Of a stretch of DNA of 32,871 nucleotides, positions 496 to 31,700 are shown in pieces. The DNA is taken from assembly GCA_028875575.1 (NCBI GenBank), contig JAPPDF010000099.1, positions 1 through 32,871 on the forward strand, written 5' to 3'. A program made the translations under genes and the position numbers. The notes under the pieces were generated by a model. That model was not told the origin of the DNA. It saw only the letters and a program-made list of their open reading frames with translations, and did no database searches. The stretch comes from Acidobacteriota bacterium (GTDB taxonomy: Bacteria; Acidobacteriota; Terriglobia; Versatilivoradales; Versatilivoraceae). Each line of letters begins with the position of its first letter. Within the stretch, counting starts at the first letter, position 1.

Positions 496-1668
496 CTACG
501 CCCGGTTGCCGCCGTAGGCTCCTCCAATCAGGTCGCCCCGCTGGAACCGCGAGAGTGAGAAGCGGCTGATGTCTGCCGAGCGGGCCTCGCCGTCAACGAT
601 CTCCTCGGCCATCAGCTCGCCCACCCCCGGGGCGATCTTGAATCCGTGGCCGCTGAAACCTGCGCACATGTAAAAACCCTCGACCCCCTCCACCCTCCCC
701 AAGATTGGATTCCAGTCGGGTGTGACGTCGTAGAGGCCGGTATAGGCTTCAATCGCCAGCGCCCCGTCGAAGGAAGGAAAACGCTGCAGGAACCGGTCGT
801 GGGTCTCCCGGACGAAGTCGGCATCGGCCGAGCGCTCGTAGCCGTCGGGGTCCACCTGCTGGTACTCCTTGGGAAATCCGCGGCCAACCAAGGTTCGCGA
901 GGATCCGTGGGGACGGTAGTAAATGGCCTTGGCCATGTCCGAGAACACCAATCGGGGAGGGCCTCCCACCTCGGAGGTCTCCATCAGGATCTCCTCCTCC
1001 CGGGTCACCTGGATGGGCGCCTGCACCCCGGCCCAGGCGGCCACTCTATCGGCCCAGGGGCCAGCGGCGTTGACCACCACCTCGGTCGAGATCTCCCCCT
1101 GCGCGGTGCGCACGCCGGCGATCTTCCGGCTCTCCACCCTCAACCCCTCCACGGGCGTCAGGGGCAGCAGTTGCCCGCCCCGATCCCGGAAGCGCCCGGC
1201 ATAGGCGGCGGTGGTGGCATGGGGGTCGGCGTAGCCCGCCCCCGGCTCCCAGGCGATCCGGTGCACGTCGCTCAGGTCGATTCGGGGCTCCATCTCCAGC
1301 AACTGCCTCTTGTCGATCTCGCGGGTGTCGATGCCCATGCTCCTCTGCATCTCCAGGTTGCGGCTGAAGCCCTCCGAAACGTATTCGGGAACCAGGAAGG
1401 CCCAGCCGCAATTCACGAACCCCGGGCTCCCACCGATCTCATCGTCGAAACTGTGGAAGATCTCCACCGACCGCTTCACCAGGCGCACCAGGTCCGGGTG
1501 GGAATAGTGCTGCCGGATGATGGCGGCCGAACGGCCCGTCCCTCCCGAGGCGATCAGCCCCTTCTCCAGCAGGACCACCTTGCGCAGTCCGGCTTTGACC
1601 AGGTTGTAGGCCGTGCTGGCGCCGTTGACTCCGGCCCCGATCACCACCGCGTCGGCTGTCCGGTGCAT
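496..1668 (-). CDS. FAD-dependent oxidoreductase, DAO family (sarcosine oxidase beta / glycine oxidase-like)
   Basis: A 390-residue flavoprotein. The N-terminus carries the Rossmann FAD-binding fingerprint VVIGAGVNGASTAYNL (residues 8-23) followed by an acidic strand end (LLEKG, 33-37). The C-terminus has YTGLYDVTPDWNPILG and CAGFSGHGFKIAPGVGELMAE, typical of SoxB-like members of the DAO superfamily, which oxidise the C-N bond of N-methyl or alpha-amino acids. A clear Shine-Dalgarno (AAGGAGG) precedes the ATG. The gene lies 42 bp downstream of thiE in the same direction, so it could be a ThiO-type glycine oxidase for thiazole synthesis. The sequence reads more like the sarcosine/dimethylglycine branch, and thiG and thiS are not in view. 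The flavoenzyme fold is sure; the substrate is not. Confidence 0.9.
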   Translation of the reverse strand: MHRTADAVVIGAGVNGASTAYNLVKAGLRKVVLLEKGLIASGGTGRSAAIIRQHYSHPDLVRLVKRSVEIFHSFDDEIGGSPGFVNCGWAFLVPEYVSEGFSRNLEMQRSMGIDTREIDKRQLLEMEPRIDLSDVHRIAWEPGAGYADPHATTAAYAGRFRDRGGQLLPLTPVEGLRVESRKIAGVRTAQGEISTEVVVNAAGPWADRVAAWAGVQAPIQVTREEEILMETSEVGGPPRLVFSDMAKAIYYRPHGSSRTLVGRGFPKEYQQVDPDGYERSADADFVRETHDRFLQRFPSFDGALAIEAYTGLYDVTPDWNPILGRVEGVEGFYMCAGFSGHGFKIAPGVGELMAEEIVDGEARSADISRFSLSRFQRGDLIGGAYGGNRA

Positions 1669-1710
1669 CTTGCCTCCTTGCCCTTGTCCTCTCTTCGCCG
1701 CCTTGCAGAC

Positions 1711-2361
1711 CTACAGTGTCCGACTTTCGGCCTGACGGGCCAGGTCCCGGTAGCCGGCGGCCCGCTGCCGGACGTCATCGGCCAGCAGCAGGTCCCGGAT
1801 GACGGCCACCGAGTCCACTCCCGACTCGAACAGCGGCCGAACGTTCTCCAGGGTGATTCCGCCGATGGCCACCAGCGGCTTGGCGACTTGCTCCCGGATG
1901 GCTCGGAGCTCCTGCCTGTCAACTACCGGATCGGGATTTTCCTTGGTCCGGGTGGGAAAGACCGGCCCGATGGCAACGTAATCCACCGGAATTTCCTGGG
2001 CCTGGCGGGCCTGGTCCAGCCCATGGGTAGAGAGACCGATGATGGCCTGCTCGCCCAGAATCCTGCGGGCCTCGGCGGCAGGCAGGTCCTCCTGGCCCAC
2101 ATGGACCCCGTCGGCCCCGCTGACCAAGGCCAGGTCCGTGCGGTCGTTGACGATGACCTTCAACCCGAGAGGGCGCGCCAGGGACACCAGCCGGCGGCAC
2201 TCCCGGAACAGATCCCCGGAAGAAAGGTGCTTGCCCCTTAGTTGGACCCACCGCACCCCGGCGCCGGCCAGCCCGTCCAGGACCGGTTCCAGCGGCCGCT
2301 GCAGCACCGCCAGGTCGATGATGGGATAGAGCGGGAAGAGCTTGGTGCCTTGGGACGGCAT
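1711..2361 (-). CDS. thiE: Thiamine-phosphate synthase ThiE
   Basis: A 216-residue cytoplasmic TIM-barrel enzyme that joins HMP-pyrophosphate and thiazole phosphate to give thiamine phosphate. Family motifs are all present: QLRGK (40-44), VNDR (71-74), DGVHVGQEDL (84-93), GLSTH (109-113), IGPVFPTRTK (131-140) and AIGGI (165-169). The usual N-terminal YxITD is the variant YPIID. Length is normal for the family. No strong ribosome binding site is visible before the ATG; it starts 72 bp after the accC stop and is probably co-transcribed with accBC. No other thi genes are in the window, apart from the possible ThiO-like flavoprotein just downstream. Confidence 0.95.
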   Translation of the reverse strand: MPSQGTKLFPLYPIIDLAVLQRPLEPVLDGLAGAGVRWVQLRGKHLSSGDLFRECRRLVSLARPLGLKVIVNDRTDLALVSGADGVHVGQEDLPAAEARRILGEQAIIGLSTHGLDQARQAQEIPVDYVAIGPVFPTRTKENPDPVVDRQELRAIREQVAKPLVAIGGITLENVRPLFESGVDSVAVIRDLLLADDVRQRAAGYRDLARQAESRTL

Positions 2362-2433
2362 GGGCCTGGAAGGAACGCCTCCTCCGTACCGGCACGGACG
2401 CCGGAAACCGGCTCCCCTAGCGCCGGGCGCGGG

Positions 2434-3765
2434 TCAGGCGTAGCGCTCCATGAACCCGGTATCCAGGCGGCCGGCCAGGAAATCGGGTTCCTTCATGATC
2501 CTCTGGTGCAACGGAATGGAAGTGCTCACACCCTCAACGATGAACATTTCCAGGGCCCGCTCCATCCGGCGAACGGCTTCCGGGCGGCTGGGAGCGTGCA
2601 CCACCAGCTTGGCGATCAGGGAGTCGTAGTAGGGAGGAACCTGACACTCGGAATAGACGGCCGTGTCCACCCGCACCCCAGTGCCTCCCGGCACGTGGAA
2701 GACGGTGATCCTCCCAGGCGAGGGCCTGAAGGTCTCGGGGTCCTCGGCATTGATCCGGCATTCGATGCTGTGGCCCCGAAGCCTGGGCGGCTCCTCCAGC
2801 TCCAGGGGTTCCCCGGAGGCCATCCGGATCTGCAACTTGACCAGGTCGACGCCGGCGACCATCTCGGTGACGGGGTGCTCCACTTGAATCCGGGTGTTCA
2901 TTTCCATGAAATAGAAGTTCCGATCCTCGTCCACCAGGAACTCCACCGTTCCGGCGCCGGAGTATCCCACCTCGGCCAGCGCTTCTTCCACCTGCCCGCC
3001 GATCCGTTCCCGAGTTTCCTCGTCCACGATCACGGAAGGCGATTCCTCGATCAGCTTCTGGTGCCGCCTCTGGATGGAACACTCACGCTCCCCGAAGTGA
3101 ACCACCTTGCCGTGCTGGTCGCCCATCACCTGGAACTCGATGTGGCGTGGCTTTTCCAGGTACTTTTCCAGGTAGAGATCGGGCACCCCAAAGGCCAGTC
3201 GGGCCTCGTTCTCGGCGGTGGAAAAAGCGGACGACAGCTCGCCGGGGCTGCGCACGATTCTCATGCCGCGACCCCCTCCCCCGGCCGCGGCCTTGACGAT
3301 GACGGGATAGCCGATGCCGGAGGCAACCTCCAGCGCCTGATCCAGGGATTCCAGGGCCCCCTGGCTCCCCGGAAGCACCGCCAGCCCTGACTGGACCATG
3401 CGTGCCCGGGCCCTGGCCTTGTCGCCCATCAGCCGAATCACCTGGGGCGAGGGTCCGATGAAGCGGACGTTGCAGGCTTCGCAGACCTCGGCGAAGTAGG
3501 CGTTCTCGGCAAGGTAGCCGTAGCCCGGGTGAACGGCGTCCACGTCGGTGACCTCGGCCGCGCTGATGACGCTGGGAACGTTGAGGTAACTCTCGGAGCT
3601 GCGGGCCGGACCCACGCAGACGGCTTCGTCGGCGAAGCGGACGTGCAGCGAGTCCCTGTCAGCCTCCGAAAAGACGGCAACCGTCCGGATACCCAACTCT
3701 CGGCAGGCGCAGATCACGCGCAATGCGATCTCGCCACGGTTGGCCACCAGGACTTTCTTGAACAT
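2434..3765 (-). CDS. accC: Biotin carboxylase subunit of acetyl-CoA carboxylase (AccC)
   Basis: A 443-residue ATP-grasp enzyme that carboxylates biotin on BCCP using ATP and bicarbonate, the first half-reaction of fatty-acid synthesis. The start [17 protein letters not shown] is the classic biotin carboxylase N-terminus. Other motifs are the Gly-rich ATP loop AAGGGGRGM (160-168), [12 protein letters not shown] (226-237) and the catalytic [10 protein letters not shown] (288-297). A GGAAG site precedes the ATG by five bases. Length matches stand-alone AccC (~445 aa). It follows accB by 147 bp, the usual accBC arrangement; the carboxyltransferase genes accA and accD are not in the window. Confidence 0.97.
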
Positions 3766-11099: not shown

Positions 11100-12452
11100 T
11101 TACCGCGCCCCGATGCGGCGCAGGGCCCGGGTGGCTTCCGACACCACCCCGGTGTCGTCGTCCTTCAAAAGGGGCCGCAGTTTCTCGGCGGTAGCGCTGT
11201 CCCCGATCTGCCCCAGGACCAGGCAGAGTCGCCTGCGGATCAAGGGGTTGCTGTCATTCAGGTAGTTCACCAGCTCCGGCGCCACCCGCGTCTTCAATTC
11301 GAGCAGGTAGGCCTGGGCTTGCTGGTGGATCGTCCGCTCCTTGAGGGCCGCCACCATCTGGTCCAGGTACTCCGTGCGTCCCAGGCCGTAGAGAGCAAAG
11401 CTCATGGCCAGCCGAGGGGCGGGCTTCTTCTCGGCCAGAAAGGCCTTCGACACATCCCCCGCCACCGAATCATCTCCCGCCCGGCCGATGCCCTCGGCGG
11501 CAAACTGGCGGTACCTGGGACCTCCGTCGCTCAGGTGGCGCCGAAACACGGGCAGCGATCTGGGGTCGCCGATGAGCGCCATGGCCTCCAAGCAATTCAG
11601 CCGGACATCGCGGCCGGGATTCTGGTCGTAGAGTGTCTGAATCTGAGGCAGCGCCTCCAGGCTCTTGAACAGGCCCAGGGTCAGGAGGGCCTCGTTGCGC
11701 ACCTTCTTGTTGGTGTTCAGAAGATAGGGCTGGACCTCCCCTGCCACCGAGCGGTCCCTGATCTTGTAGAACGCCCGCAGAATGGCCACCTGCAGATTGG
11801 GCTCGGCGCCGTTCATCCCCTCCACCATCTTGGGAATGGCCGCCTTTCCACGCAACACCCCCAAGGCGTTGGCCGCATAGAAGCGTACCTCTCTATGGGA
11901 GTCGCGCAGGCGCGCGGCAATGCCGTCAATGACCGCCGGAGCCACCTTCACGTCGGGCTCGATGACGGTGTCGTCGCTGGGTACCGGGCCGCTGAAGGGA
12001 TTCAGCCGCGCGTAGAGGCGCTTGGCCTCCCGGGTCAGGAAAGAGCTGGCGTCCTTCTCGGTATAGAGGTTGACCAGGGCGATGACGGCCTCCCGGCGAA
12101 CTTCGGGCACCCCGTCCTCGAGAGCCTTCAACAGCATGGTGACGGCGCCGGTATCCCTGATCAGACCCAAGGACTTGACGGCTGCGCGGCGAACCTCGGG
12201 ATCCTTGTCCCCTACCGCCCCCAGCAGCGGGGGCGTAGCCTCCCGGCTGAGCGTCTCGCCAAGCTCGCGGGCCGCCTTCCTGCGGTCACCGGCCTTCTTG
12301 CTTTTCAGCTTTTCTCGCAGTCCCTCAATAGAATCCCCCATGGCAAAGGGGACCAGCGGGGCTCCGGCGGGGCACAGGAGGAGCAATCCACTCGCCAGGC
12401 CCACCAGCAGGATGCGGCAGAACTCTTTTCTCGCCCTGCAGGAAACGCTCAT
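11100..12452 (-). CDS. Exported HEAT-repeat (PBS-lyase-type) protein
   Basis: A 450-residue protein with a signal sequence or signal anchor (about 1-37, ILLVGLASGLLLLCPAGAPL). It is then almost wholly alpha-helical HEAT repeats of about 31 residues, such as DRRKAARELGETL..ATPPLLGAVGDKDPEVRRAAVKSLGLIRD and LIRRRLCLVLGQIGDSATAEKLRPLLKDDDTGVVSEATRALRRIG at the end. HEAT solenoids are scaffolds for protein binding; no catalytic motif is visible, so no partner can be named. GAGGG precedes the ATG. It lies 92 bp after the DUF2085 gene in the same direction and shares the bidirectional terminator at 11001-11033. Confidence 0.88.
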   Translation of the reverse strand: MSVSCRARKEFCRILLVGLASGLLLLCPAGAPLVPFAMGDSIEGLREKLKSKKAGDRRKAARELGETLSREATPPLLGAVGDKDPEVRRAAVKSLGLIRDTGAVTMLLKALEDGVPEVRREAVIALVNLYTEKDASSFLTREAKRLYARLNPFSGPVPSDDTVIEPDVKVAPAVIDGIAARLRDSHREVRFYAANALGVLRGKAAIPKMVEGMNGAEPNLQVAILRAFYKIRDRSVAGEVQPYLLNTNKKVRNEALLTLGLFKSLEALPQIQTLYDQNPGRDVRLNCLEAMALIGDPRSLPVFRRHLSDGGPRYRQFAAEGIGRAGDDSVAGDVSKAFLAEKKPAPRLAMSFALYGLGRTEYLDQMVAALKERTIHQQAQAYLLELKTRVAPELVNYLNDSNPLIRRRLCLVLGQIGDSATAEKLRPLLKDDDTGVVSEATRALRRIGAR

Positions 12453-19505: not shown

Positions 19506-19583
19506 GGCGTCCATACTTCATTGGTAACCATATGCACTGCACCGCCTTCTTGAAACGTTCTCCCTGTGGAGGCAATACGACTC

Positions 19584-20204
19584 ATGAAGAAAGACCCTCC
19601 TGGAGCGAGAACGTCCCGCCCGCACAAGGCCTGGCACGATCGTGGCTACCTCCCGCACTTCGATGAAGCGGGAACGGTGCAATTTCTCACTTTCCGACTT
19701 GTCGACGCGGTTCCCTCCGCAATCGTCGCCGACTGGAAGACCGACCTGAAGCTCAGTGGTGGCGAAAAGGCCAACGATCCCCGCTGTGCACGCCTTCGCG
19801 GCCAAATCGAGCGTTTCGCCGATCAGGGACACGGCGCCTGCTGGCTGAAAGACGCCCGCGTCGCAGCAGTGGTCCGGGATGCACTGCTGCATTTCGACGG
19901 TGAGCGCTACCGTCTTCTGGCGTGGGTCATCATGCCCAATCACGTGCATGCGGTAATCGAGACACTGCCCGGCTTTCCCTTGGACGCGGTCATCCACTCC
20001 TGGAAATCGTTCACCGCCAAGCGGGCGAATCGACTGTTGGGCCGGACTGGCGCTTTCTGGATGGGAGACTATTTCGACCGCTATGTTCGCGATGAGGCAC
20101 ATCTCTGGGACGTCATGCGTTACATGGAAGAGAACCCCGTAAAGGCCGGTTTGGTGCGCCTCGCAAAGGAGCGGCCATGGATGGATGGCTGTTTGCAAGA
20201 ATAA
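19584..20204 (+). CDS. REP-associated tyrosine transposase (RAYT)
   Basis: A 206-residue Y1-type transposase of the REP-associated class. The HUH motif is MPNHVHAVIE (His120, His122). The downstream segment DYFDRYVRDEAHLWDVMRYMEENPVKAGLV (162-191) is the classic RAYT C-terminal block; a Tyr in YFDRY is the likely nucleophile. It is expected to recognise and mobilise REP hairpins as single-stranded DNA. Its own 5' end (PGARTSRPHKAWHD) is written in a degenerate REP, and a perfect REP lies just after its stop at 20223. The ATG at 19584 follows GGAGG by 11 bases; a GTG at 19566 would overlap that site. No frameshift or missing motif is seen, so it may be functional. Confidence 0.9.
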   Translation: MKKDPPGARTSRPHKAWHDRGYLPHFDEAGTVQFLTFRLVDAVPSAIVADWKTDLKLSGGEKANDPRCARLRGQIERFADQGHGACWLKDARVAAVVRDALLHFDGERYRLLAWVIMPNHVHAVIETLPGFPLDAVIHSWKSFTAKRANRLLGRTGAFWMGDYFDRYVRDEAHLWDVMRYMEENPVKAGLVRLAKERPWMDGCLQE

Positions 20205-20222: not shown

Positions 20223-20430
20223 CCCGGGAGCGCGGGCGTCTCGCCCGCATAGGACCTGGCACAGCCTCGGCCATCTCCTCCACCCGGGTCGACTGGCAAC
20301 GACGCCAGCACTCCGATTCAGCCGTGCCCATGCTGTTGCCGCTAGCCGGGTGGCCGGGTGCCACATCGCAGGGAAACTGAGCGGCACGCAACGGTATGGC
20401 TTGCGGGCGGGACGCCCGCGCTCCCGGGTG
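20223..20430 (+). repeat. 208-bp REP-bounded unit, copy 1
   Basis: It starts with a forward REP (CCCGGGAGCGCGGGCGTCTC..) and ends with an inverted REP (GCGGGACGCCCGCGCTCCCGGGTG), enclosing about 150 bp that do not code. The same unit recurs at 20592-20797 with an offset of 369 bp and only about four differences. The DNA between the two copies (20431-20591) has no gene; it contains TTTGTGTCACTTCGTGGATCTCTC, AT-richer text common in intergenic insertions. Confidence 0.8.
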
Positions 20431-20591
20431 GGCATCCTCCCTTCCCTCTTGCTCCTCAACGGGAAGCGCGCCGGCTTGCCGGGCCGCAGCCCGTGTCGAT
20501 GCGACCGAGGCGTCATGCTTGGTGGTCCTTTGTGTCACTTCGTGGATCTCTCTATTTTCTGTTGTTGCAAATAAGGTTGCGGGTGAGCCCC

Positions 20592-20797
20592 CCCGGGAGC
20601 GCGGGCGTCTCGCCCGCATAGGACCTGGCACAGCCTTGGCCATCTCCTCCACCCGGGTCGACTGGCAACGGCGCCAGCACTCCGATTCAGCCGTGCCCAT
20701 GCTGTTGCCGCTAGCCGGGTGGCCGGGTGCCACATCGCAGGGAAACTGAGCGGCACGCAACGGTATGGCTTGCGGGCGGGACGCCCGCGTTCCCGGG
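20592..20797 (+). repeat. 208-bp REP-bounded unit, copy 2
   Basis: Near-identical to 20223-20430. Its right inverted REP ends CCCGGGTGG and joins directly to TAGAATGTG, creating an extended -10 for the following operon. Confidence 0.8.
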
Positions 20798-20806
20798 TGG
20801 TAGAAT
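20798..20806 (+). promoter_or_regulatory. Extended -10 of the glycosylation operon, formed at a REP edge
   Basis: TG-G-TAGAAT: the TG belongs to the end of the REP, and TAGAAT lies immediately outside. Transcription would start near 20813, leaving a 43-nt leader before the ATG at 20856 and only 10 nt before the alternative ATG at 20823. No convincing -35 is seen because that position falls inside the REP hairpin. Confidence 0.4.
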
Positions 20807-20855
20807 GTGATTAACTCTCTGGATGAGAGTATCTTGCCAGCCTCCGAGAACCGGG

Positions 20856-22016
20856 ATGAACGACACGCCGAAGGAACCGAACGACCTCGAGAGTCCCGGC
20901 CCCCGCCAGGCAGTTTCCATCATCGTGCCGACGTTTCGCGAGGCGGCCAACATTCCGCGCCTGGTTGAGCGCATTCATGCCGCGCTCTCCGATAGCGGAA
21001 TCTCCTGGGAGCTGCTGCTGGTCGACGACGACTCGGAAGACGGCAGCGAGGCGGTGGTCGCGGAACTGGCGGATCGCCTGCCGGTGCGCATGGTGACACG
21101 CCGCCAACTGCCCCGGGACCTGTCACTCTCCGTTATCGAGGGAATCCGGCTCTGCCGGTTCGACCGGATGGTGGTGATGGATGCCGATCTGTCCCATCCT
21201 CCCGAGCGCATCCCCGACTTGCTCACTGCCCTCGACGCCGATTGCGACATGGTCGTCGGCAGCCGCTACGCGCCGGGAGGTGTCATCGATCGGACCTGGA
21301 GCCGGTGGCGCGTTTTGAATTCCCGCGTGGCAACTGCATTGACGCTTCCGCTCGTCAGTTGCTCCGATCCGATGGCCGGGTTTTTCGCAACCGACCGCCG
21401 TGCGCTCCCGGACCTGCGGACGCTGCAACCCATCGGCTACAAGATCGCCCTGGAGCTCATGGTGCGCGGACAATTGCGGGTCAAGGAACTGCCCATCGAC
21501 TTCCGCGACCGCAGTCTGGGCTCCAGCAAGATGAACTGGAGACAGCAGCTCAACTTCCTGCGTCACCTCTGCCGCCTGTACCGGTTCAAGTTCGGCGGGA
21601 TAGTTCGGGTGCTCTGCTTCGGGCTGGTGGGCGCCAGCGGCTTCCTGATCGATGTTGCCGGTTACTTCTGCCTGCAGTGGATCGGCCTCGATCACCGCCT
21701 GGCGCGTTTCCTGTCCTTCTGGCCGGCGGTCACCTGGAACTGGCGGCTCAACCGCAGCCTGACCTTCGGCGAGCGTCCGCCCCAGCCCCGGGTGCGCCAA
21801 TGGGGCAAGTTCGTGGCCAGCAGTCTGGTCGGTCTCACCGTGAACGTCGGCAGCTACACCCTCCTGACCAGCTATGTCGACGTCTTCGCCCATCATCGAT
21901 TGCCGGCGCTCCTGTTGGGTGTCGCTCTCGGCACCCTCTTCAACTTTCTGCTTGCGAACCTTTATGTCTATCGCCTGCATGCGGGAACGCATAAACTCAA
22001 GGCTTCACGGAAATGA
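20856..22016 (+). CDS. GT2 polyprenyl-phosphate sugar synthase (DPM1-like) fused to a GtrA domain
   Basis: A 386-residue fusion. Residues 19-235 form a GT-A fold of the DPM1/GtrB type: SIIVPTFREAANI, LLVDDDSEDGS (54-64) and the metal-binding VMDADLSHPPERI (107-119), then VGSRYAPGG and the KELPIDFRDRSLGSSKM block. Residues about 255-375 form a four-helix GtrA domain (RVLCFGLVGASGFLIDV..FLSFWPAVTWNWRLNRSLTF..). It should transfer mannose or glucose from a nucleotide sugar to polyprenyl phosphate and help move the product across the inner membrane. It would then supply the GT-C enzymes encoded next. The ATG at 20856 fits the putative promoter; an in-frame ATG at 20823 is possible. Its stop overlaps the next start (ATGA). 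Confidence 0.9.
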   Translation: MNDTPKEPNDLESPGPRQAVSIIVPTFREAANIPRLVERIHAALSDSGISWELLLVDDDSEDGSEAVVAELADRLPVRMVTRRQLPRDLSLSVIEGIRLCRFDRMVVMDADLSHPPERIPDLLTALDADCDMVVGSRYAPGGVIDRTWSRWRVLNSRVATALTLPLVSCSDPMAGFFATDRRALPDLRTLQPIGYKIALELMVRGQLRVKELPIDFRDRSLGSSKMNWRQQLNFLRHLCRLYRFKFGGIVRVLCFGLVGASGFLIDVAGYFCLQWIGLDHRLARFLSFWPAVTWNWRLNRSLTFGERPPQPRVRQWGKFVASSLVGLTVNVGSYTLLTSYVDVFAHHRLPALLLGVALGTLFNFLLANLYVYRLHAGTHKLKASRK

Positions 22017-23680
22017 CCAGGCGAAAGAGGCCACTGATAAGCCGGCGCCGAGCGAAGCGGTCCACCTGGCAGCCTGTCCTGCCGCGGATTCAGGCGGCGC
22101 TCGAGGTGCTGCTTCACCCGAGGGTCACCGGCCGAACCTGGAAATATCTGCCGCTGGTACTGGCGCTGGCATTTGCGGCGCGCGCCGCGGTGGCTTTGTC
22201 GGGCGACTTCGTGCTACACCCCGACGAGATCATGCAGTACCTGGAGCCGGCGCACCGGCTGGTCTTCGGCAGCGGCATCACCTACTGGGAGTACTTCTAC
22301 GGTGCACGCTCCTGGCTGGTACCCGGAACGGTGGCCGGCCTCCTCATGCTGTTCGACGCCGTCGGCCTCGGTCAGCCCTTCTGGTACGTCGGCGGCGTCA
22401 AGCTGCTGTTCTGCGCAATCTCGCTGGCGATTCCGGCAGGCATGTACGTCTTTGCCCGACGCCACTTCGGGGAAACCGCCGGGAGGGCGGCCTTGCTGGC
22501 GGGAGCCTTCTGGTACGAGTTGGTCGGCTTCGCCCACAAGCCCATGACCGAGTTCGTAGCCGCCGCTCCGCTGATGGCGCTGCTGGCGCTCTGTGTGCGG
22601 CCCTCCGTGGAGGATGCCCGGACGGTCTGGACTGCAGCCTTTCTCGCTTGCATCACCGCAGCCATTCGGTTGCAGTACGCACCGATTGCCCTCCTGTTAT
22701 TGGGGATCGTGTTTCTGCGAACCGGGAAGAGGATGCAGCTCATACTGGCTGGGGCCGGATTCACCGCCGCCTTCGGCCTGTTGGACGCTGTCACGTGGGA
22801 TGGCGGTCTCTTCCACTCCTACGTCACCAACATCCGCTACAACCTTATCCTGGGTTCAATGCGTACCGGTGAGAGTCCGGCCTACCAGTACCTCATCTGG
22901 CTCACTCTCTCGGGCCTGGGGTTGAGCGTGCTTTGCGTTGCGGCGGCATTTCGCCACCTGCGGCGCTACGGCTTTCTGCTGGGGCTGATCGCCCTGGTCC
23001 TGCTGGTCCATTCCCTGCAAGCCCACAAGGAGTACCGCTTCATCTTTGCCGTCATTCCGCTCTGGCTCCTGACCGGTGCCGACCTGACGGCGGGCCTGGC
23101 AGTCGACGGAAACAAACTACGTCGTCTTGCCGGACTTGCAGCCGCCGGGTTCGCCGCCCTTTCGCTGGCGGGAATCCTGAACGCGCTGCCCTACCAGGGC
23201 CGAGTGTACAAAGCCTGGTCGCGGGAGACCGGAGTGGTGGGCTTCGTCCGAAACCGCGACCCAATCTTTCCCGCCTATCGCTTCCTTGCCCGAGCACCCG
23301 GCGTCAGCGGGGTGTGGCAGGTCGACCGCCCCTATATCAACCTTCCGGGATACTACTACCTGCACCACAAGATCCCCTTCTACGACCTGGACACCGGAAG
23401 GGGTCTCGAAGGGAACGTGCAGGTGGTTTCTTCCCTGGTCAGTCACATCGTATCCGCGGACTCCAGGTTTTCCGTACCCGGATATTCCCTGGAGCGAGAA
23501 TTCGGCGAAGTCCGCATCTTGCGCCGCGACCAGAACGAGCCTCCCGTCCGACCCTGGATCGACCATGCTCCCGTCCTGCTAACCAAACGCTCTCTACGGA
23601 TCATGAGGCAAATGGACCCGGACGGCCCCTCTCAGCCAGCCAATTTCGGGATCCGCTTCGCAGACCCGGAGAGGCCGTAG
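22013..23680 (+). CDS. GT22-like (GPI/ALG9-type) GT-C mannosyltransferase
   Basis: A 555-residue polytopic enzyme of the GT-C fold. The first periplasmic loop has HPDEIMQYLEPAHRLVFGSG (from residue 69), where Asp71/Glu72 are the expected catalytic acid pair. The downstream HSLQAHKEYRFIFAVIP (about 331-347) contains the HKEYRF motif of the ALG9/PIG-B family. Between are about ten membrane helices; the C-terminal ~130 residues are a soluble, probably periplasmic domain. Enzymes of this class take sugar from polyprenyl-phosphate-mannose. It begins four bases inside the preceding gene (ATGA) and the next gene starts three bases after its stop, so it is the second gene of a tight operon. The acceptor is unknown. 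Confidence 0.85.
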   Translation: MTRRKRPLISRRRAKRSTWQPVLPRIQAALEVLLHPRVTGRTWKYLPLVLALAFAARAAVALSGDFVLHPDEIMQYLEPAHRLVFGSGITYWEYFYGARSWLVPGTVAGLLMLFDAVGLGQPFWYVGGVKLLFCAISLAIPAGMYVFARRHFGETAGRAALLAGAFWYELVGFAHKPMTEFVAAAPLMALLALCVRPSVEDARTVWTAAFLACITAAIRLQYAPIALLLLGIVFLRTGKRMQLILAGAGFTAAFGLLDAVTWDGGLFHSYVTNIRYNLILGSMRTGESPAYQYLIWLTLSGLGLSVLCVAAAFRHLRRYGFLLGLIALVLLVHSLQAHKEYRFIFAVIPLWLLTGADLTAGLAVDGNKLRRLAGLAAAGFAALSLAGILNALPYQGRVYKAWSRETGVVGFVRNRDPIFPAYRFLARAPGVSGVWQVDRPYINLPGYYYLHHKIPFYDLDTGRGLEGNVQVVSSLVSHIVSADSRFSVPGYSLEREFGEVRILRRDQNEPPVRPWIDHAPVLLTKRSLRIMRQMDPDGPSQPANFGIRFADPERP

Positions 23681-23683
23681 CCG

Positions 23684-25624
23684 ATGGCGCAGCGAAAGAA
23701 AACGAGGCCGAATCGGCGCAAGCGACTAGCCTTGAGGCTGGATTCTTCACCTCAAGTTAGTGCCTCCGCCGTAGCCGAACCCGAAAAGACACCGGCATCC
23801 TCGGGTCCCGGCGAGGCCACCCGGTCTTTGGACCTGTTCTCGCGTCGGGACGCCCTGGGCGCTCTGGCCCTCGCCCTGCTGGCGGCGGTCTGCTACCTGC
23901 CGGCGATGCTTTGGGGCGGCTTTGTTTGGGATGACTACATCTGGTACCAATCCCAGGCAGTCCTGGAGTGGTCCGGTCTCGGCAACATCTGGTCCTGGCC
24001 CTCGATCATTGAGAAGGAGCGACACTACTGGCCGCTGACCTATACCACCTTCTGGCTGGAACACAAGATCTGGGGACTGGAGCCGGCCGGCTATCACGTC
24101 GTCAACGTGCTGCTGCACCTGCTCAACTCCCTGTTGCTGTGGCGATTGCTGCTCCGCTTGGCCGTGCCCGGGGCCTGGATCGTGGCTGCCGTGTTCGCCG
24201 CTCATCCGCTGCACGTGGAATCGGTGGCCTGGATCATCGAGCGCAAGGACGTGCTTTCCGGCCTTTTCTACCTCACCGCCGTGCTGGTCTGGCTGCGCTT
24301 CCTGGAACAACCCCGACCCTGGCGCTATGGCCTCGCACTCTTGCTGTTTGTAGCAGGCCTGTTGAGCAAATCGGTGGTAGTGACACTGCCGGTGGCGTTG
24401 CTGATCGTCCAGTGGTGGAAGACTGGCCGCATCACGGGGAAGGATCTGCTGCGCCTGGCGCCGTTCTTCCTGGTGGCGCTGCTCATTACCCTGGCCGATC
24501 TCTACTCTTACGACCTGGGGAGGCACAACCTGGACTACTCATGGCCCGAGCGGGTGCTCATCGCGTCCCGGGCCCTGTGGTTCTATGCAGGGAAACTGGC
24601 CTGGCCAACCGATCTCTCAGTCATCTACCCACTCTGGAACATCAGCCTGAGCGACCCTTGGGCCTGGCTGTACCTGGCCGCCGCCACGGTGCTGGCGGCG
24701 GTGCTGTGGCTCACGCGCCATCGGATTGGGCGTGGGCCGCTGGCCGGGGCGCTATTCTTTGTGGTGACGCTGTCGCCGGCTCTGGGCTTCGTGAATTACG
24801 GCTACATGGTCTACTCTATGGTAGCCGACCGCTTTCAATACCTGGCAGGCATTGGGGTGATGGCAGTCATCATCGGCGTCGCCGTGCATGCCGCCAGCCG
24901 GTTGCCGCGCGGACTGAAGATGGGGGCAGCAGGTCTCCTGATCGTGTTGTTGGCGCTACTTGGAACGACGACCTGGCGCCAGGCAGGAATCTACCGGGAC
25001 GATCTCACATTCTTCAGTCACATTGTGTCGCTCAACCCCATGGCGCGGAACGCTCACCGCAATCTCAGCAGGGAGTTGAGCAAGGCAGGCCATATGGAGG
25101 AAGCTCTGGCCGCTGCCAAGGTCGCCTCGGAACAGCTCCCGGATGAAGCCCGCTCATATACCTTGGTTGGCGAGATACTTGCCAATCTCAAGCGGATGGA
25201 CGAGGCCGAGGACAACTTTCGCCGCGCGCTGGAGCTCGGACTGAGCAGGGCCAGAGAGATTCGGTTTCTTGCCTTTCTGGGACGGATGTCGTGGCAGTGG
25301 GGTCGGATTGAATCAGCGGAGGACTTCTCGCGGCGAGCGTTGGAACTCGACCCGCGCAACAAGGAAGCACTCGAGTATCTAGCCGCGTCCTATTTGAGCC
25401 GGAAGCGTTACCAAGAGGCACTCAATCAGTACCGGAAACTGTCGGAAGTCGATCCCGACAATGCAACGACGCACAACAACATTGCCGGGCTCCTGCACCA
25501 CTTGGGCCGGTCGGAAGCAGCGGTCCGGAGCTTCAAACGCGCGCTCTCTCTGGACCCCACCCACGAAGAAGCCCGCATCGGCCTCGAAGAGGCGCGCAAG
25601 ACCCTGCAGCAAGCGGTGGAATAG
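23684..25624 (+). CDS. TMTC-like GT-C membrane glycosyltransferase with C-terminal TPRs, paralog 1
   Basis: A 646-residue protein. A basic N-terminus (MAQRKKTRPNRRKR) and a Ser/Pro-rich linker lead to about ten membrane helices (60-450) and then about five TPR units (460-646). The first loop has GGFVWDDYIWYQS with the Asp83-Asp84 pair expected of GT-C enzymes. The stretch AHPLHVESVAWIIERKDVLSGLFYL and VADRFQYLAGIGVMA are hallmarks of the TMTC/DUF1736 family, whose animal members O-mannosylate cadherins from dolichyl-phosphate-mannose. The TPRs may face the periplasm and hold the acceptor protein. It starts three bases after the GT22-like gene. The TPR region is the most diverged part among the three paralogs. 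Confidence 0.87.
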   Translation: MAQRKKTRPNRRKRLALRLDSSPQVSASAVAEPEKTPASSGPGEATRSLDLFSRRDALGALALALLAAVCYLPAMLWGGFVWDDYIWYQSQAVLEWSGLGNIWSWPSIIEKERHYWPLTYTTFWLEHKIWGLEPAGYHVVNVLLHLLNSLLLWRLLLRLAVPGAWIVAAVFAAHPLHVESVAWIIERKDVLSGLFYLTAVLVWLRFLEQPRPWRYGLALLLFVAGLLSKSVVVTLPVALLIVQWWKTGRITGKDLLRLAPFFLVALLITLADLYSYDLGRHNLDYSWPERVLIASRALWFYAGKLAWPTDLSVIYPLWNISLSDPWAWLYLAAATVLAAVLWLTRHRIGRGPLAGALFFVVTLSPALGFVNYGYMVYSMVADRFQYLAGIGVMAVIIGVAVHAASRLPRGLKMGAAGLLIVLLALLGTTTWRQAGIYRDDLTFFSHIVSLNPMARNAHRNLSRELSKAGHMEEALAAAKVASEQLPDEARSYTLVGEILANLKRMDEAEDNFRRALELGLSRAREIRFLAFLGRMSWQWGRIESAEDFSRRALELDPRNKEALEYLAASYLSRKRYQEALNQYRKLSEVDPDNATTHNNIAGLLHHLGRSEAAVRSFKRALSLDPTHEEARIGLEEARKTLQQAVE

Positions 25625-25636
25625 CGCCTTCACACC

Positions 25637-27673
25637 ATGGTTGACACAAGGAAGAAAACGAGACCGAATCCGCGCAAGCGATCAGCCCTGAGGTTAGCTT
25701 CATCACCTCAAGCCAGTGCCTCCGGCGTAGCCGAACCCGGAAAGTCACCCGCATCCCGGGTTCCTGGCAAGGCCAACCGGTTCTTCGGCCGATTCTCGCG
25801 CCGGGGCGCGCTGGTCGTCCTGGCGCTCGCCCTGCTGGCAGGGGTTTGCTACCTGCCGGCGATGCTCTGGGGCGGCCTGATTTGGGATGACTTCATCTGG
25901 TTTCAGTCCCCGGCTGTCCTGGAATGGTCCGGCCTCGGCGCCATCTGGTCCTGGCCGTCGAGTATTGAGCAGGAAAAACACTACTGGCCGCTGACCTATA
26001 CCACCTTCTGGCTGGAACACAAGATCTGGGGACTGGAGCCGACAGGCTATCACGTCGTAAACGTGCTGCTGCACCTGCTCAACTCCCTGCTGCTGTGGCG
26101 ACTGTTGTTGCGCCTGGTCGTGCCCGGGGCCTGGGTCGTGGCTGCCGTGTTCGTCGCACATCCGCTGAACGTGGAGTCGGTGGCCTGGATCATCGAGCGC
26201 AAGGACGTGCTTTCCGGCCTTTTCTACCTACTTGCCGTGATCGTTTGGCTGCGCTTCCTGGAACAACCGCGACCCTGGCGCTATGGCCTGGCGCTGCTGC
26301 TGTTCGTAGCAGGCCTGTTGAGCAAATCGGTGGTGGTGACGCTGCCGGTGGCCTTGCTGGTCGTACAGTGGTGGAAGACGGACCGCATCACGACGAAAGA
26401 TCTGCAGCGCGTGGCGCCATTCTTCCTGGTGGCGCTGCTCATTACCCTGGCCGATCTCTACTCCTACGACCCGGGGAGGCACGACCTGGACTACTCCTGG
26501 CCCGAGCGGGTGCTCATCGCGTCCCGGGCCTTGTGGTTCTATGCCGGGAAACTGGTCTGGCCAACCGATCTCTCGGTCATCTACCCGCGCTGGAACATCA
26601 GTCTCGGGGACCCCTGGGCCTGGCTGTACCTGGCCGCCGCCCTGGTGCTGGCGGCGGTGCTGTGGCTCATGCGCCACCGGATTGGGCGTGGTCCGCTGGC
26701 CGGAACGTTGTTCTTCGTGGTGACGCTGTCACCGGTTCTGGGTTTCGTGAATCACGGCTACATGGAGTACTCTCTGGCAGCCGACCGCTTTCAATACCTG
26801 GCCGGCATCGGGGTGATGGCAGTCATCATCGGCGCCGCCGTGCACGGCGCCAGCCGGTTGTCGGGTAAATGGAAGATGGGAGCGACAGGGCTTCTGGTAG
26901 TGTTACTGGCGTTTCTCGGAACGAGGACCTGGCGCCAGGCGGGAATCTACCGAGACGATGTCACTTTCTTCAACCATGTTATTTCTCTCAATCCCAAGGC
27001 ACTGAACGCTCATCGCAATCTCGGCCTCGGTTTGATCAGGGCGGGCCGCCTGGAGGAAGCTCTGGCCGCTGCCAGGATCGCCGTGGCACAGCGCCCCGAT
27101 TTCACCGAACCCTATTTCCTGCTCGGCGAAATACTAGTGAGACTCGATCGGTTAGACGATGCCAAGGCGAACTTTCGGCGCGTCCTCGAGATCGATCCAC
27201 GCCAAGTGAAGAAACTCAATGATTTCGCCGAGTTTTGTTTCGAGCAGAAGCGTTACCGTGAGGCGCTCGATCTCTTTCGGATGCTGCTGGAGGTCGATCC
27301 CGACAATGCAGCCACCCACTCCAACCTCGGGGCGATCCTGCACTCCCTGGGCCAACTCGATGAGGTCGAAAAACACTTCGTGCGAGCCCTGCAAATCGCC
27401 CCACGCCACAAGGAGGCACTCGGTAATCTCGCCTGGTTGCGCTTCGAGCAGAAGCGTTACCGTGAGGCGCTCGATCTGTTTCGCATGCTGTTGGAGGTCG
27501 ATCCCGACAATGCGACTACCCACTCCGACATTGGCGTGACCCTTTACCACCTGGGTCAGGCAGAAGCAGCGCTCCGGAGCTTCAAACAGGCTCTCTCCGT
27601 GGACCCGACTCTGGAAACGGCCCGAACCAACCTCAAAGAGATACGCAAGACCCTGCAGCAAGAGGTGGAGTAG
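25637..27673 (+). CDS. TMTC-like GT-C/TPR protein, paralog 2
   Basis: A 678-residue paralog of the preceding gene, 12 bp downstream, with nearly the same membrane part: GGLIWDDFIWFQS, HPLNVESVAWIIERKDVLSGLFYL, AADRFQYLAGIGVMA. It is 68 residues longer than paralog 3, equal to two 34-residue TPR units. The repeated phrase EQKRYREALDLFRMLLEVDPDNA occurs twice, 204 bp apart, showing an in-frame duplication of two TPRs. The N-terminal MVDTRKKTRPNPRKR is almost shared with paralog 3. Probably the same reaction with a different acceptor range. Confidence 0.87.
   Translation: MVDTRKKTRPNPRKRSALRLASSPQASASGVAEPGKSPASRVPGKANRFFGRFSRRGALVVLALALLAGVCYLPAMLWGGLIWDDFIWFQSPAVLEWSGLGAIWSWPSSIEQEKHYWPLTYTTFWLEHKIWGLEPTGYHVVNVLLHLLNSLLLWRLLLRLVVPGAWVVAAVFVAHPLNVESVAWIIERKDVLSGLFYLLAVIVWLRFLEQPRPWRYGLALLLFVAGLLSKSVVVTLPVALLVVQWWKTDRITTKDLQRVAPFFLVALLITLADLYSYDPGRHDLDYSWPERVLIASRALWFYAGKLVWPTDLSVIYPRWNISLGDPWAWLYLAAALVLAAVLWLMRHRIGRGPLAGTLFFVVTLSPVLGFVNHGYMEYSLAADRFQYLAGIGVMAVIIGAAVHGASRLSGKWKMGATGLLVVLLAFLGTRTWRQAGIYRDDVTFFNHVISLNPKALNAHRNLGLGLIRAGRLEEALAAARIAVAQRPDFTEPYFLLGEILVRLDRLDDAKANFRRVLEIDPRQVKKLNDFAEFCFEQKRYREALDLFRMLLEVDPDNAATHSNLGAILHSLGQLDEVEKHFVRALQIAPRHKEALGNLAWLRFEQKRYREALDLFRMLLEVDPDNATTHSDIGVTLYHLGQAEAALRSFKQALSVDPTLETARTNLKEIRKTLQQEVE
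27241..27648 (+). repeat. 204-bp internal duplication of two TPR units
   Basis: CGAGCAGAAGCGTTACCGTG begins at 27241 and again at 27445. The first ~90 bp of the two 204-bp units are almost identical; the second halves have diverged and only the TPR pattern is kept. The length is exactly two 34-residue TPRs. Confidence 0.8.
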
Positions 27674-27685
27674 CCGCTTCACACC

Positions 27686-29518
27686 ATGGTTGACACAAGG
27701 AAGAAAACGAGGCCGAATCGGCGCAAGCGATTGGCCTCGAGGCCGGCTTCCTCAGCTCGAGCCAATGCCTCCGCCGCAGCCAAACCCGGAAAGGCAGCGG
27801 CATCCTCGGTTCCTGGCGAGGCCACCCGATTCCTGGACCGGTTCTCGCGCCAGGACGCCCTGGCCGCCCTGGCTCTCTGCCTGCTGGCAGCGGTCTGCTA
27901 CCTGCCGGCGATGCTCTGGGGCGGCTTTGTCTGGGATGACGACATCTGGTACGAGTCCCAGGCGGTCCTGGAGTGGTCCGGCCTCGGCGCCATCTGGTCC
28001 TGGCCGTCGGGCATGGAGAAGGAGAGACACTACTGGCCGCTGACCTATAGCACCTTCTGGCTGGAACACAAGATCTGGGGACTGGAGCCGGTCGGCTATC
28101 ACGTCGTCAACGTGCTGCTTCACCTGCTCAACTCCCTGCTGCTGTGGCGACTGCTGCTGCGCCTGGCCGTGCCCGGGGCCTGGATTGTGGCTGCCGCCTT
28201 CGCCGCCCATCCGCTGCACGTGGAGTCGGTGGCCTGGATCATCGAGCGCAAGGACGTGCTTTCCGGCCTCTTCTACCTCACCGCCGTGCTGGTCTGGCTG
28301 CGCTTCCTGGAACAACCGCGTCCCTGGCGCTATGGCCTGGCGCTCCTGCTATTCGTAGCGGGCCTGTTGAGCAAATCGGTGGTGGTGACGCTTCCGGTGG
28401 CGCTGTTGATCGTCCAGTGGTGGAAAGCGGGCCGCATCACGGGGAAAGACGTGCAGCGCTTGGCGCCGTTCTTCCTGGTGGCGCTGCTCATTACCCTGGC
28501 CGATCTCTACTCCTACGACCTGGAGAGGTTCAAGCTGGACTACTCGTGGCCCGAGCGGGTGCTCATCGCGTCCCGGGCCCTTTGGTTCTACGCGGGGAAA
28601 CTGGCCTGGCCAACCGACCTCTCGGTCATATACCCACTCTGGGACATCAGCCTCGGGGACCCCTGGGGCTGGCTGTACCCGGCCGCAGCCATGGTGCTGG
28701 CGGGGGTGCTGTGGTTGGCGCGCCATCCGATCGGGCGCGGGCCGCTGGCCGGGGCCTTGTTCTTTGCGGTGACGCTTTCGCCGGCTCTGGGCTTCGTGAA
28801 TTACGGCTACATGGGGTACTCCCTGGTAGCCGACCGGTTCCAATACCTGGCCTGCATCGGGGTGATGGCGGTCATCATCGGGGCCGCCGTGCATGGCGCC
28901 AGCCGGTTGCCGGATCGATGGAAGATGGGGGCGACAGGTCTTGTGGTGGTGATGCTGGCCCTACTTGGAACAACGACCTGGCGCCAGGCGGGAATCTACC
29001 GAGACACAGTCACTCTCTTCAATCATGTTGTATCTCTCAATCCCAACGCAAGAAACGCTCACCGCAATCTCAGCATCGGTTTGATGAATGCAGGTCGCCT
29101 GGAGGAAGCACTGGCCGCTGCCACGATCGCCTCGGCACAGCGCCCGAATGAAGGCCGCTCCTATTCGTTGCTGGGCCGAATACTCGAGGATCTCCAAAGG
29201 ATGGAGGAGGCAGAGGAGAACTATCGCCGTGTCCTGGAGCTCAACCCGCGCAACAGGGAGGCACTCAAGTATCTCGCCACGTCGTATTTCAACCGGAAGA
29301 GCTACGGGGAGGCGCTCGATCTGTATCGGAGACTGGCGGAGGTCGAGCCCGACAATGCCAAGACGCACAACAACATCGGCGCCACCCTGTACTACCTGGG
29401 CCGGCCGGAAGCGGCGGTCCGGAGCTTCAAACAGGCGCTCTCTCTGGACCCGACGCTGGAAGGCGCCCGTACCGGCCTGGAAGAGGCCCGCAGGACTTTG
29501 CGGCAATCGGGGGAATAG
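27686..29518 (+). CDS. TMTC-like GT-C/TPR protein, paralog 3
   Basis: A 610-residue paralog, the shortest of the three, starting 12 bp after paralog 2 with the same CTTCACACCATGGTTGACAC junction. The catalytic loop is GGFVWDDDIWYES, with an extra Asp; HPLHVESVAWIIERKDVLSGLFYL and VADRFQYLACIGVMA are kept. About four TPRs follow (455-610), ending GARTGLEEARRTLRQSGE. It is the last sure gene of the operon that starts at 20856. High similarity of the membrane parts, including at DNA level, suggests recent tandem duplication or gene conversion; the TPR parts differ more. Confidence 0.87.
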   Translation: MVDTRKKTRPNRRKRLASRPASSARANASAAAKPGKAAASSVPGEATRFLDRFSRQDALAALALCLLAAVCYLPAMLWGGFVWDDDIWYESQAVLEWSGLGAIWSWPSGMEKERHYWPLTYSTFWLEHKIWGLEPVGYHVVNVLLHLLNSLLLWRLLLRLAVPGAWIVAAAFAAHPLHVESVAWIIERKDVLSGLFYLTAVLVWLRFLEQPRPWRYGLALLLFVAGLLSKSVVVTLPVALLIVQWWKAGRITGKDVQRLAPFFLVALLITLADLYSYDLERFKLDYSWPERVLIASRALWFYAGKLAWPTDLSVIYPLWDISLGDPWGWLYPAAAMVLAGVLWLARHPIGRGPLAGALFFAVTLSPALGFVNYGYMGYSLVADRFQYLACIGVMAVIIGAAVHGASRLPDRWKMGATGLVVVMLALLGTTTWRQAGIYRDTVTLFNHVVSLNPNARNAHRNLSIGLMNAGRLEEALAAATIASAQRPNEGRSYSLLGRILEDLQRMEEAEENYRRVLELNPRNREALKYLATSYFNRKSYGEALDLYRRLAEVEPDNAKTHNNIGATLYYLGRPEAAVRSFKQALSLDPTLEGARTGLEEARRTLRQSGE

Positions 29519-30065: not shown

Positions 30066-31700
30066 TTACTCGATATCCTCCGTTCGCTCGGCCGGATCGG
30101 TGATGACCTCGGCCATGTAGCCGTGGGAAACGTCCACGGCGGCCCCGTCGGCGAAGTTACCCATGACAAAGGCCATGCCCCGGGCGTGCTGGAATCCTGC
30201 CCTGATGATGGCGTAGCCTTCCATTCCGGCCATGGCGGTATTGCCGCAATCGAAGGTGGTGGTCGATCCGGCCGCCATGTCGGGGCTGACGGTTACAACT
30301 ACGGGCTCGACCGTATCATCGGCAGACAGCACCGGGTCACTCGGGAATCCGTACATGACGACGGAGCCGTTCTGGTCTTTGGCCTCGTCGAAGGCGCCGA
30401 AGATGTTGGCGTCGGCGGAGGTGTTGGACACCGAGATTCCCGTGGTCCAGCCGGGATTGGCCCCGCAGGTCACGAAGAGATAGAGCAGGTAGGTCACGCA
30501 CTCGGAGACGACCAGCCAGCCCTCTCCCGTGTTATTACCGTCGTCGTCCATGGGATTCTGCAGCTCGGCCTCGAAGGACAACTCCGATTCCAGATCGAGC
30601 TTGACTCCCTCGGTAGACCGGTCGGCCGGCGGAAAGAGCATGGCGGCGATATCCACCGAAGCATCGCTTCCGAAATCGACCTCATCGGGCGTAATCTCGA
30701 AGCTGCGGGCAGCGTTGAGGGGGGTATCTCCTAGGGGCTCTCCATCGGTGTTGGTTGGGGTTCTGCTGTGACGTGTTTCCCGCGCGTAATTGTAAACGAC
30801 CACCTCGCCGTTGCTGCTGGACTCGGGATCGTCCTTGGTCAAGGTTCCGTTAATCCTATTGACCTTCGTTTCGTCAGCTAGAGTAACCTCAACCAAGCTA
30901 TCGACGGATGGAGGCCATTTGACGGAGGCGCCGTCGGGCAGATTGTGCAGGACAATCTTGATTGAGGCGGTCTCTGAACCGATACCGTCACCCCCTGACG
31001 GCCCCCAGGCCCCTATACGGCCGAGGGCATCGACACCAAAGCCTTCGGCAACCGTAATGGAAGGCTTCTCTGTGGTCGAACAGGCCAAACTGGAGGCTTG
31101 CTTGGCCGTCACTTTCAGACCGGCAGCCACCACGGCCACCGGGCCCGAAACGCCACCTGAAGCGTCGCCTCCGCCTAGAGGTTGTGTATTCGCATCGGTC
31201 GTCGATGTGACATTGACACTAATCTCATCGTCGACGGCCAAAGCGGAAGCATCCACTCTGACTCCAACTACCTTGAAATCCGCTGGTGTGTCAGCGTCTT
31301 CGATTGTGATTGTAATGACCCCCGTACCACCTTTGTTTGAGATGGAGGCTGCCGCGATGGTGTCGTCACAATCATCTGCATAGTTGGTTCCGCACTTGAG
31401 CACGAACCCGGCCGTGGTATCCCCCCTGGCGGAGTCGGCGTTGGTGATGAGCAGTCCGTAGCCGATCTTGATAATCAGATCATCGTTCTGAGCTCTATCG
31501 ATAGAATGTTCGGTACGATCTGCATCTGCTGCCCAATCGAACTCCAAGTCGCTCACCAGCGCGTTGTTGGCGTATTGGGCCACCTTCGCAAGCGGCGCAT
31601 CAGTCCGGACATTGAAACCTCCATTCACGTCTTGCCCGTAAACCACCTGCCCTGCGACCAATGTAAAGATCAGCAGAGCAAACAGGATTTTCAATCTCAT
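30066..31700 (-). CDS. Secreted acidic Thr/Ser-rich protein of unknown function
   Basis: A 544-residue exported protein. The signal peptide is MRLKILFALLIFTLVAGQVV with likely cleavage near residue 22. The mature chain is rich in Asp, Thr, Ser, Gly and Ala, with beta-like segments such as GTGVITITIEDADTPADFKVVGVRVD and few basic residues. Paired Cys (KCGTNYADDCDD; SECVTYLLYLFVTCGANPGWTTGISVSNTS; DCGNT) suggest disulfides. Between 395 and 525 the pattern GWTTGISVSNTSADANIFG..MYGF..HARGMAFVMGNF looks like a repeated adhesin-like or envelope domain. GAGGAG precedes the ATG by six bases. It is transcribed alone, converging on the glycosylation operon. Its low-charge, Thr/Ser-rich body would be a plausible acceptor for those enzymes, but that is a guess. 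No catalytic motif was seen. Confidence 0.8.
   Translation of the reverse strand: MRLKILFALLIFTLVAGQVVYGQDVNGGFNVRTDAPLAKVAQYANNALVSDLEFDWAADADRTEHSIDRAQNDDLIIKIGYGLLITNADSARGDTTAGFVLKCGTNYADDCDDTIAAASISNKGGTGVITITIEDADTPADFKVVGVRVDASALAVDDEISVNVTSTTDANTQPLGGGDASGGVSGPVAVVAAGLKVTAKQASSLACSTTEKPSITVAEGFGVDALGRIGAWGPSGGDGIGSETASIKIVLHNLPDGASVKWPPSVDSLVEVTLADETKVNRINGTLTKDDPESSSNGEVVVYNYARETRHSRTPTNTDGEPLGDTPLNAARSFEITPDEVDFGSDASVDIAAMLFPPADRSTEGVKLDLESELSFEAELQNPMDDDGNNTGEGWLVVSECVTYLLYLFVTCGANPGWTTGISVSNTSADANIFGAFDEAKDQNGSVVMYGFPSDPVLSADDTVEPVVVTVSPDMAAGSTTTFDCGNTAMAGMEGYAIIRAGFQHARGMAFVMGNFADGAAVDVSHGYMAEVITDPAERTEDIE

Follow-up and report, generated by a model that had tools for sequence, protein, structure and literature searches.

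An operon for putative polyprenyl-phosphate-sugar-dependent periplasmic glycosylation with TMTC-like GT-C/TPR proteins in an acidobacterium

The DNA analyzed here (hereafter the window) is an entire contig of 32,871 bases from an acidobacterial genome of 4.49 Mb. All five open reading frames of an operon proposed in an initial annotation were found on the plus strand between 20856 and 29518; they encode a GT2-GtrA fusion, a GT22-family GT-C glycosyltransferase (hereafter the GT22 protein) and three GT-C/TPR proteins, designated T1, T2 and T3 (Table 1). The genes are tightly packed, with a 4-nt ATGA overlap at the first junction and gaps of 3, 12 and 12 nt at the following ones. The start of the GT2-GtrA gene is uncertain by 11 codons, as an in-frame ATG is present upstream at 20823. 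Repeats and an IS200-like transposase gene precede the operon, and the window also carries a HEAT-repeat gene and a row of oxidoreductase, ThiE-type and biotin carboxylase genes.

Table 1. Coordinates of the operon genes and of other features in the window
Feature	Coordinates	Strand	Description
FAD-dependent oxidoreductase, ThiE-type, biotin carboxylase genes	499-3765	-	Genes in a row
HEAT-repeat protein	11100-12452	-	PF13646, six stretches
IS200-like transposase	19566-20204	+	REP-associated type; PF01797
GCGGGCGGGACGCCCGC repeats	20400-20820		Directly upstream of the operon
GT2-GtrA fusion	20856-22016	+	386 aa; PF00535 + PF04138
GT22-family GT-C glycosyltransferase	22013-23680	+	555 aa; PF03901, HPDE motif
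GT-C/TPR protein T1	23684-25624	+	646 aa; PF13231 + TPR; DD83/84, R187xD189, K229, R383
T1/T2 junction	25615-25650	+	Near-identical to T2/T3 junction at 27664-27700
GT-C/TPR protein T2	25637-27673	+	678 aa; PF13231 + TPR; active-site residues as in T1
GT-C/TPR protein T3	27686-29518	+	610 aa; PF13231 + TPR; AF2 model; GT-C + TPR fold matches
Secreted protein	30066-31700	-	544 aa; no Pfam match

The gene order and close packing recur in three further species of the genus (G001, G003 and G006), which argues that the five-gene arrangement is not due to chance. Across the genus, the core GT2-GtrA/GT22/GT-C-TPR arrangement is retained, and the number of GT-C/TPR copies (1-3) is lineage-specific: G001 has one operon copy, and in G006 a single GT-C/TPR gene is accompanied by two GT22 genes. 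Homologues (35% identity) of the secreted protein encoded downstream occur near the operon in G005 (locus L046) and G001 (L041), which suggests a common chromosomal location of the operon in three species. Because it adjoins the operon in these species, the secreted protein was considered as a glycosylation acceptor; no evidence for its glycosylation emerged, and it was not adopted as one.

In pairwise comparisons, T1, T2 and T3 are 84-90% identical in the GT-C part and 56-69% identical in the TPR part, which agrees with the initial description of three genes differing mostly in their TPR domains; T2 exceeds T3 by about two TPRs. In the phylogenetic tree, one clade (SH-aLRT 100) comprises T1, T2, T3 and one G005 copy, and a separate clade (SH-aLRT 90) comprises the three G003 copies of the operon type, so that the G003 expansion was independent of that in the window. 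By this tree, T1, T2 and T3 arose from a single enzyme by recent tandem duplication, and the near-identity of the T1/T2 and T2/T3 spacers indicates that gene and spacer were duplicated together. The presence of three isoenzymes, which the initial annotation described, is not a property of the system, since relatives have one copy, three copies by independent duplication, or two GT22 copies. The dN/dS values of the GT-C part (0.20-0.32) suggest that all three paralogues are constrained. The dS values are higher in the TPR part (0.41-0.71) than in the GT-C part (0.28-0.30), a pattern consistent with gene conversion of the latter. Because dS is also raised, the faster divergence of the TPRs is suggestive, and no proof, of acceptor diversification, and it is no simple sign of the proposed three acceptor ranges.

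The GT2-GtrA protein matched the dolichol-phosphate-mannose synthase (DPMS) of Pyrococcus furiosus (PDB 5mlz) over residues 19-360, i.e., across both domains, with an E-value of 1.2e-49. Matches to ArnC-type enzymes (E 1e-15) and to GtrB-type proteins (sll0501, E 3e-7) were far weaker. In an alignment with archaeal DPMS, the protein keeps DAD 109-111, R137 and SK 224-225; we take the DAD motif and the aligned basic residues to be catalytic, with the P. furiosus structure in mind. The two proteins share a GT2 domain followed by a GtrA-like membrane domain, and the present one differs in being bacterial, in having Ser instead of Gln two residues after DAD, and in being linked to GT-C genes. The match to both domains and the GT2 DxD motif support the earlier assignment of a DPM1-like enzyme, and the protein is probably a DPMS-like polyprenyl-phosphate-hexose synthase, the hexose probably being mannose. 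Flipping of the lipid-linked sugar by the GtrA part, which had been proposed as well, is at most a possibility, as a GtrA-like part is also the plain membrane domain of archaeal DPMS.

GDP-mannose is a plausible donor. In two Binatota-type MAGs, the GT2-GtrA gene directly adjoins the gene for ManC (a GDP-mannose enzyme). In the genome that contains the window, searches with TIGR01479 and PF22640 detected no full ManC and no recognizable ManC-type beta-helix domain, and RmlA and GalU are present; both observations would fit a pathway of the same design that uses another sugar, e.g., glucose or a deoxy sugar, and such a pathway could be combined with either a protein or a glycan acceptor. We consider a sugar other than mannose rather unlikely, given the DPMS match, the ManC neighbors in Binatota-type MAGs, and a GMPPB/Rv3264c-like protein in the same genome. 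The latter is a candidate mannose-1-phosphate guanylyltransferase that scored 312 bits against a family cut-off of 440 and matched a GMPPB structure at an E-value of 4e-51.

The GT22 protein matched PF03901 with an E-value of 7.7e-32, and its HPDE motif (H69-P-D-E72) is invariant in five sequences of the genus. A structure model of this protein built from 3 sequences had a pLDDT of 36 and was left out of the analysis.

T1, T2 and T3 matched PF13231 (E 4e-6 to 8e-6) and TPR families, and a sequence-profile search found no solved structure for the GT-C part. An AlphaFold (AF2) model of T3 from 50 sequences (pLDDT 91.8, pTM 0.88) contains a complete GT-C fold followed by 4-5 TPRs, and most active-site residues are intact, as the initial annotation required. 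The top 50 Foldseek matches by E-value were taken up by TPR proteins, and the GT-C folds emerged from a second look with VIA-align, in which 310-340 residues of the GT-C part aligned with yeast STT3 (Z 21.0), AglB (19.6), ArnT (18.2) and Pmt4 (18.0); residues 440-610 matched TPR proteins. From loop charges and helix count, the TPRs are predicted to be periplasmic and not cytoplasmic. The N-terminus of T3 has 15 basic residues and most cytoplasmic loops are basic, which agrees with this location. The model has 11 membrane helices if helix 288-307 is read as a peripheral loop helix, the same number as was proposed for TMTCs, and this reading would place the DD motif and the TPRs on one side of the membrane.

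We further tested the seven TMTC motifs of PMC7801869 against the T1/T2/T3 family. Motif M1 (DD, in EL1) is present in T3 as D84/D85 and in 50 of 50 sequences, and M3 (RxD) and M7 (ERxxY) are present as R188xD190 and D383-R384xxY387, the latter with Asp for Glu. In M4, KE(T/Q)xxT, K230 (invariant in 50 sequences) and T235 are kept and Glu is replaced by Ser231; in M5 (DW), Asp is absent (Y316-P-L-W319); M2 is largely different, with only Y and P kept. M4 and M5 of TMTCs contain metal and phosphate ligands, with the Glu of M4 and the Asp of M5 as proposed metal ligands. PF08409 (TMTC_DUF1736) was absent from T1, T2 and T3 (hmmscan, E up to 1). It was also not found in the genome, in a weak search in which control genomes likewise gave no match, and among 24 relatives it was detected in one, weakly (E 0.0017). 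Membership in the PF08409 family was therefore rejected. Of the initial designation as TMTC-type enzymes, the GT-C part followed by TPRs and the DD, RxD, K..T and xRxxY elements stand; missing are PF08409, the Glu of M4 and the Asp of M5. The proteins are thus TMTC-like, and they are not TMTCs: they share with the metazoan O-mannosyltransferases TMTC1-4 the order of a GT-C part and lumenal or periplasmic TPRs together with these elements (PMC7801869), and differ in the domain and residues just named, in most of M2, and in being encoded in an operon with GT2-GtrA and GT22.

Among 61 related genomes, GT-C/TPR proteins occur in 51, mostly with 28-45% identity outside the genus. GT22 homologues are essentially confined to the genus in this set, and the best GT2-GtrA outside the genus has 41% identity. 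In the genome that contains the window, a further and more remote GT-C/TPR protein (29% identity) is encoded away from the operon (contig C66; L200:2443-4452, minus strand). A scan of GTDB genomes revealed that the closest relatives are outside the class of the window: GT-C/TPR proteins with 51-62% identity were found in Latescibacterota, Nitrospirota, Binatota, Holophagales and one Gammaproteobacteria MAG. Five of nine such genomes have GT2-GtrA with 60-72% identity, a split form is additionally present in the Gammaproteobacterium, and GT22 identity reaches 66%. This cross-phylum distribution is new here, having been missed by the initial annotation, whose suggested check of neighborhood conservation had a positive outcome: the three gene types co-occur both in genus relatives and in other phyla.

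The cross-phylum GT-C/TPR relatives and the window genes form one clade (SH-aLRT 100, 24 rows). In alignment A4, H115, W117, D190 and R384 are common to all 13 clade members included and occur together in one of the 37 other sequences, from BRC1 (L108, HGW-BRC1-1); this protein, with its HW/D/R active-site residues, has no close GT2-GtrA or GT22 homologues nearby. Across 79 GTDB loci, linkage to close GT2-GtrA/GT22 homologues is essentially limited to the window's clade. Arrangements within it vary. GT2, GT22, GT-C/TPR and GtrA are four genes in the Gammaproteobacterium (L168), with a GT2-GT22 spacing of about 1.5 kb; in Latescibacterota L161 a pair of GT22 genes precedes GT-C/TPR genes, Nitrospirales L163 has GT2-GtrA and then a GT-C/TPR fragment, and L084, which is labeled Gemmatimonadetes and placed by rpoB next to a Latescibacterota MAG, has GtrA and then GT-C/TPR. 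In Holophagales L085 (SB0667), a Calx-beta/PKD surface-protein gene (L085:3-2594, plus strand), a candidate acceptor, ends where GT2-GtrA begins, and GT-C/TPR comes next.

Within the genus, rpoB is 96% and GT2-GtrA 83% identical, whereas in comparison with Nitrospirota/Binatota rpoB is 59-62% and GT2-GtrA 64-70% identical over the full alignment. GT2-GtrA thus evolves faster than rpoB in the genus and yet is more similar across phyla, which points to transfer; the operon belongs to a cross-phylum subfamily that has probably spread horizontally, a conclusion well supported though short of proof. Vertical inheritance with loss elsewhere, which would concern the history and not the mechanism, is improbable in view of these identities. 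In AU tests, trees that group the genus with Holophagales (p 0.21) or with relatives from its own class (p 0.09) were not rejected, and we do not use these tests as proof of horizontal transfer. The rpoB tree, from which one row with a wrong-strand ORF (G075) was left out, the identities of the other rows being unaffected, places the window near Holophagales (Acidobacteriota).

With regard to function, extracytoplasmic glycosylation of some kind is very likely, and the operon would most likely serve polyprenyl-phosphate-sugar-dependent protein O-mannosylation in the periplasm, whose chances we put at about even. In such a pathway, GT2-GtrA would transfer a hexose, likeliest mannose from GDP-mannose, onto polyprenyl phosphate at the cytoplasmic leaflet, as its DPMS match suggests. 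The lipid-linked sugar would then reach the periplasmic leaflet, perhaps via the GtrA domain or an unlinked flippase. By analogy with animal TMTCs, the GT-C/TPR proteins would glycosylate Ser/Thr of envelope proteins that their periplasmic TPR superhelix presents, and the GT22 protein may take the same donor to extend this sugar or to place one on a different acceptor.

Glycolipids are known substrates of GT22 enzymes. As lipids and glycans are also glycosylated by both GT22 and GT-C enzymes, the gene content does not imply that the acceptor is a protein. The operon could instead decorate a glycan or lipid of the envelope, be it lipopolysaccharide, capsule or a glycolipid, in the manner of GtrABC, the TPRs being a polysaccharide-assembly scaffold. 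The combination of GT2, GtrA and a GT-C transferase is indeed the layout of GtrABC O-antigen modification systems, and same-class GT2-GtrA fusions are paired with other large membrane proteins, the one tested matching PMT_2. We nevertheless regard such a target as possible and the less probable of the two: the best match is DPMS and not GtrB, OST and PMT-type folds roughly equal or surpass ArnT in score, and no O-antigen or prophage genes were recognized among the scanned ORFs of the window. The present system also differs from GtrABC in the fusion of GT2 with GtrA and of the GT-C enzymes with TPRs. For protein O-mannosylation there is a bacterial parallel. Pmt belongs to the PMT/GT39 enzymes and lacks TPRs. 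In actinobacterial Ppm1/Pmt (Streptomyces coelicolor, PMC5882110), a polyprenyl-phosphate-mannose synthase likewise feeds an extracytoplasmic GT-C enzyme, and the present operon differs in that it combines a GT2-GtrA fusion of DPMS type with a GT22 partner and with GT-C enzymes that are fused to TPRs.

Animal TMTCs act on cadherins. A mobile, self-contained TMTC-like O-mannosylation system in at least five phyla of sponge symbionts, modifying adhesin-type surface proteins in a host-like manner, can be envisaged, and we consider it doubtful in this full form. The jk18x7bins MAG belongs to an Ircinia sponge data set according to the literature, and the RHO3, SB06xx, OX6383xx, Plut and PNGst MAGs look sponge-derived, judging by their names alone. 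Sponge symbionts have been described as laterally transferring repeat-protein and attachment genes (PMC8163846), and with cross-phylum spread of the operon, surface glycosylation would be one more trait that sponge-associated bacteria exchange.

A search of titles and abstracts on the TMTC family (GT105) returned no described function for a bacterial GT-C/TPR protein. By joining these common TMTC-like proteins with a synthase of DPMS type and with a GT22 enzyme, the operon offers a concrete hypothesis for the donor and a small, expressible gene set. A bacterial TMTC-like enzyme could also be easier to study than animal TMTCs.
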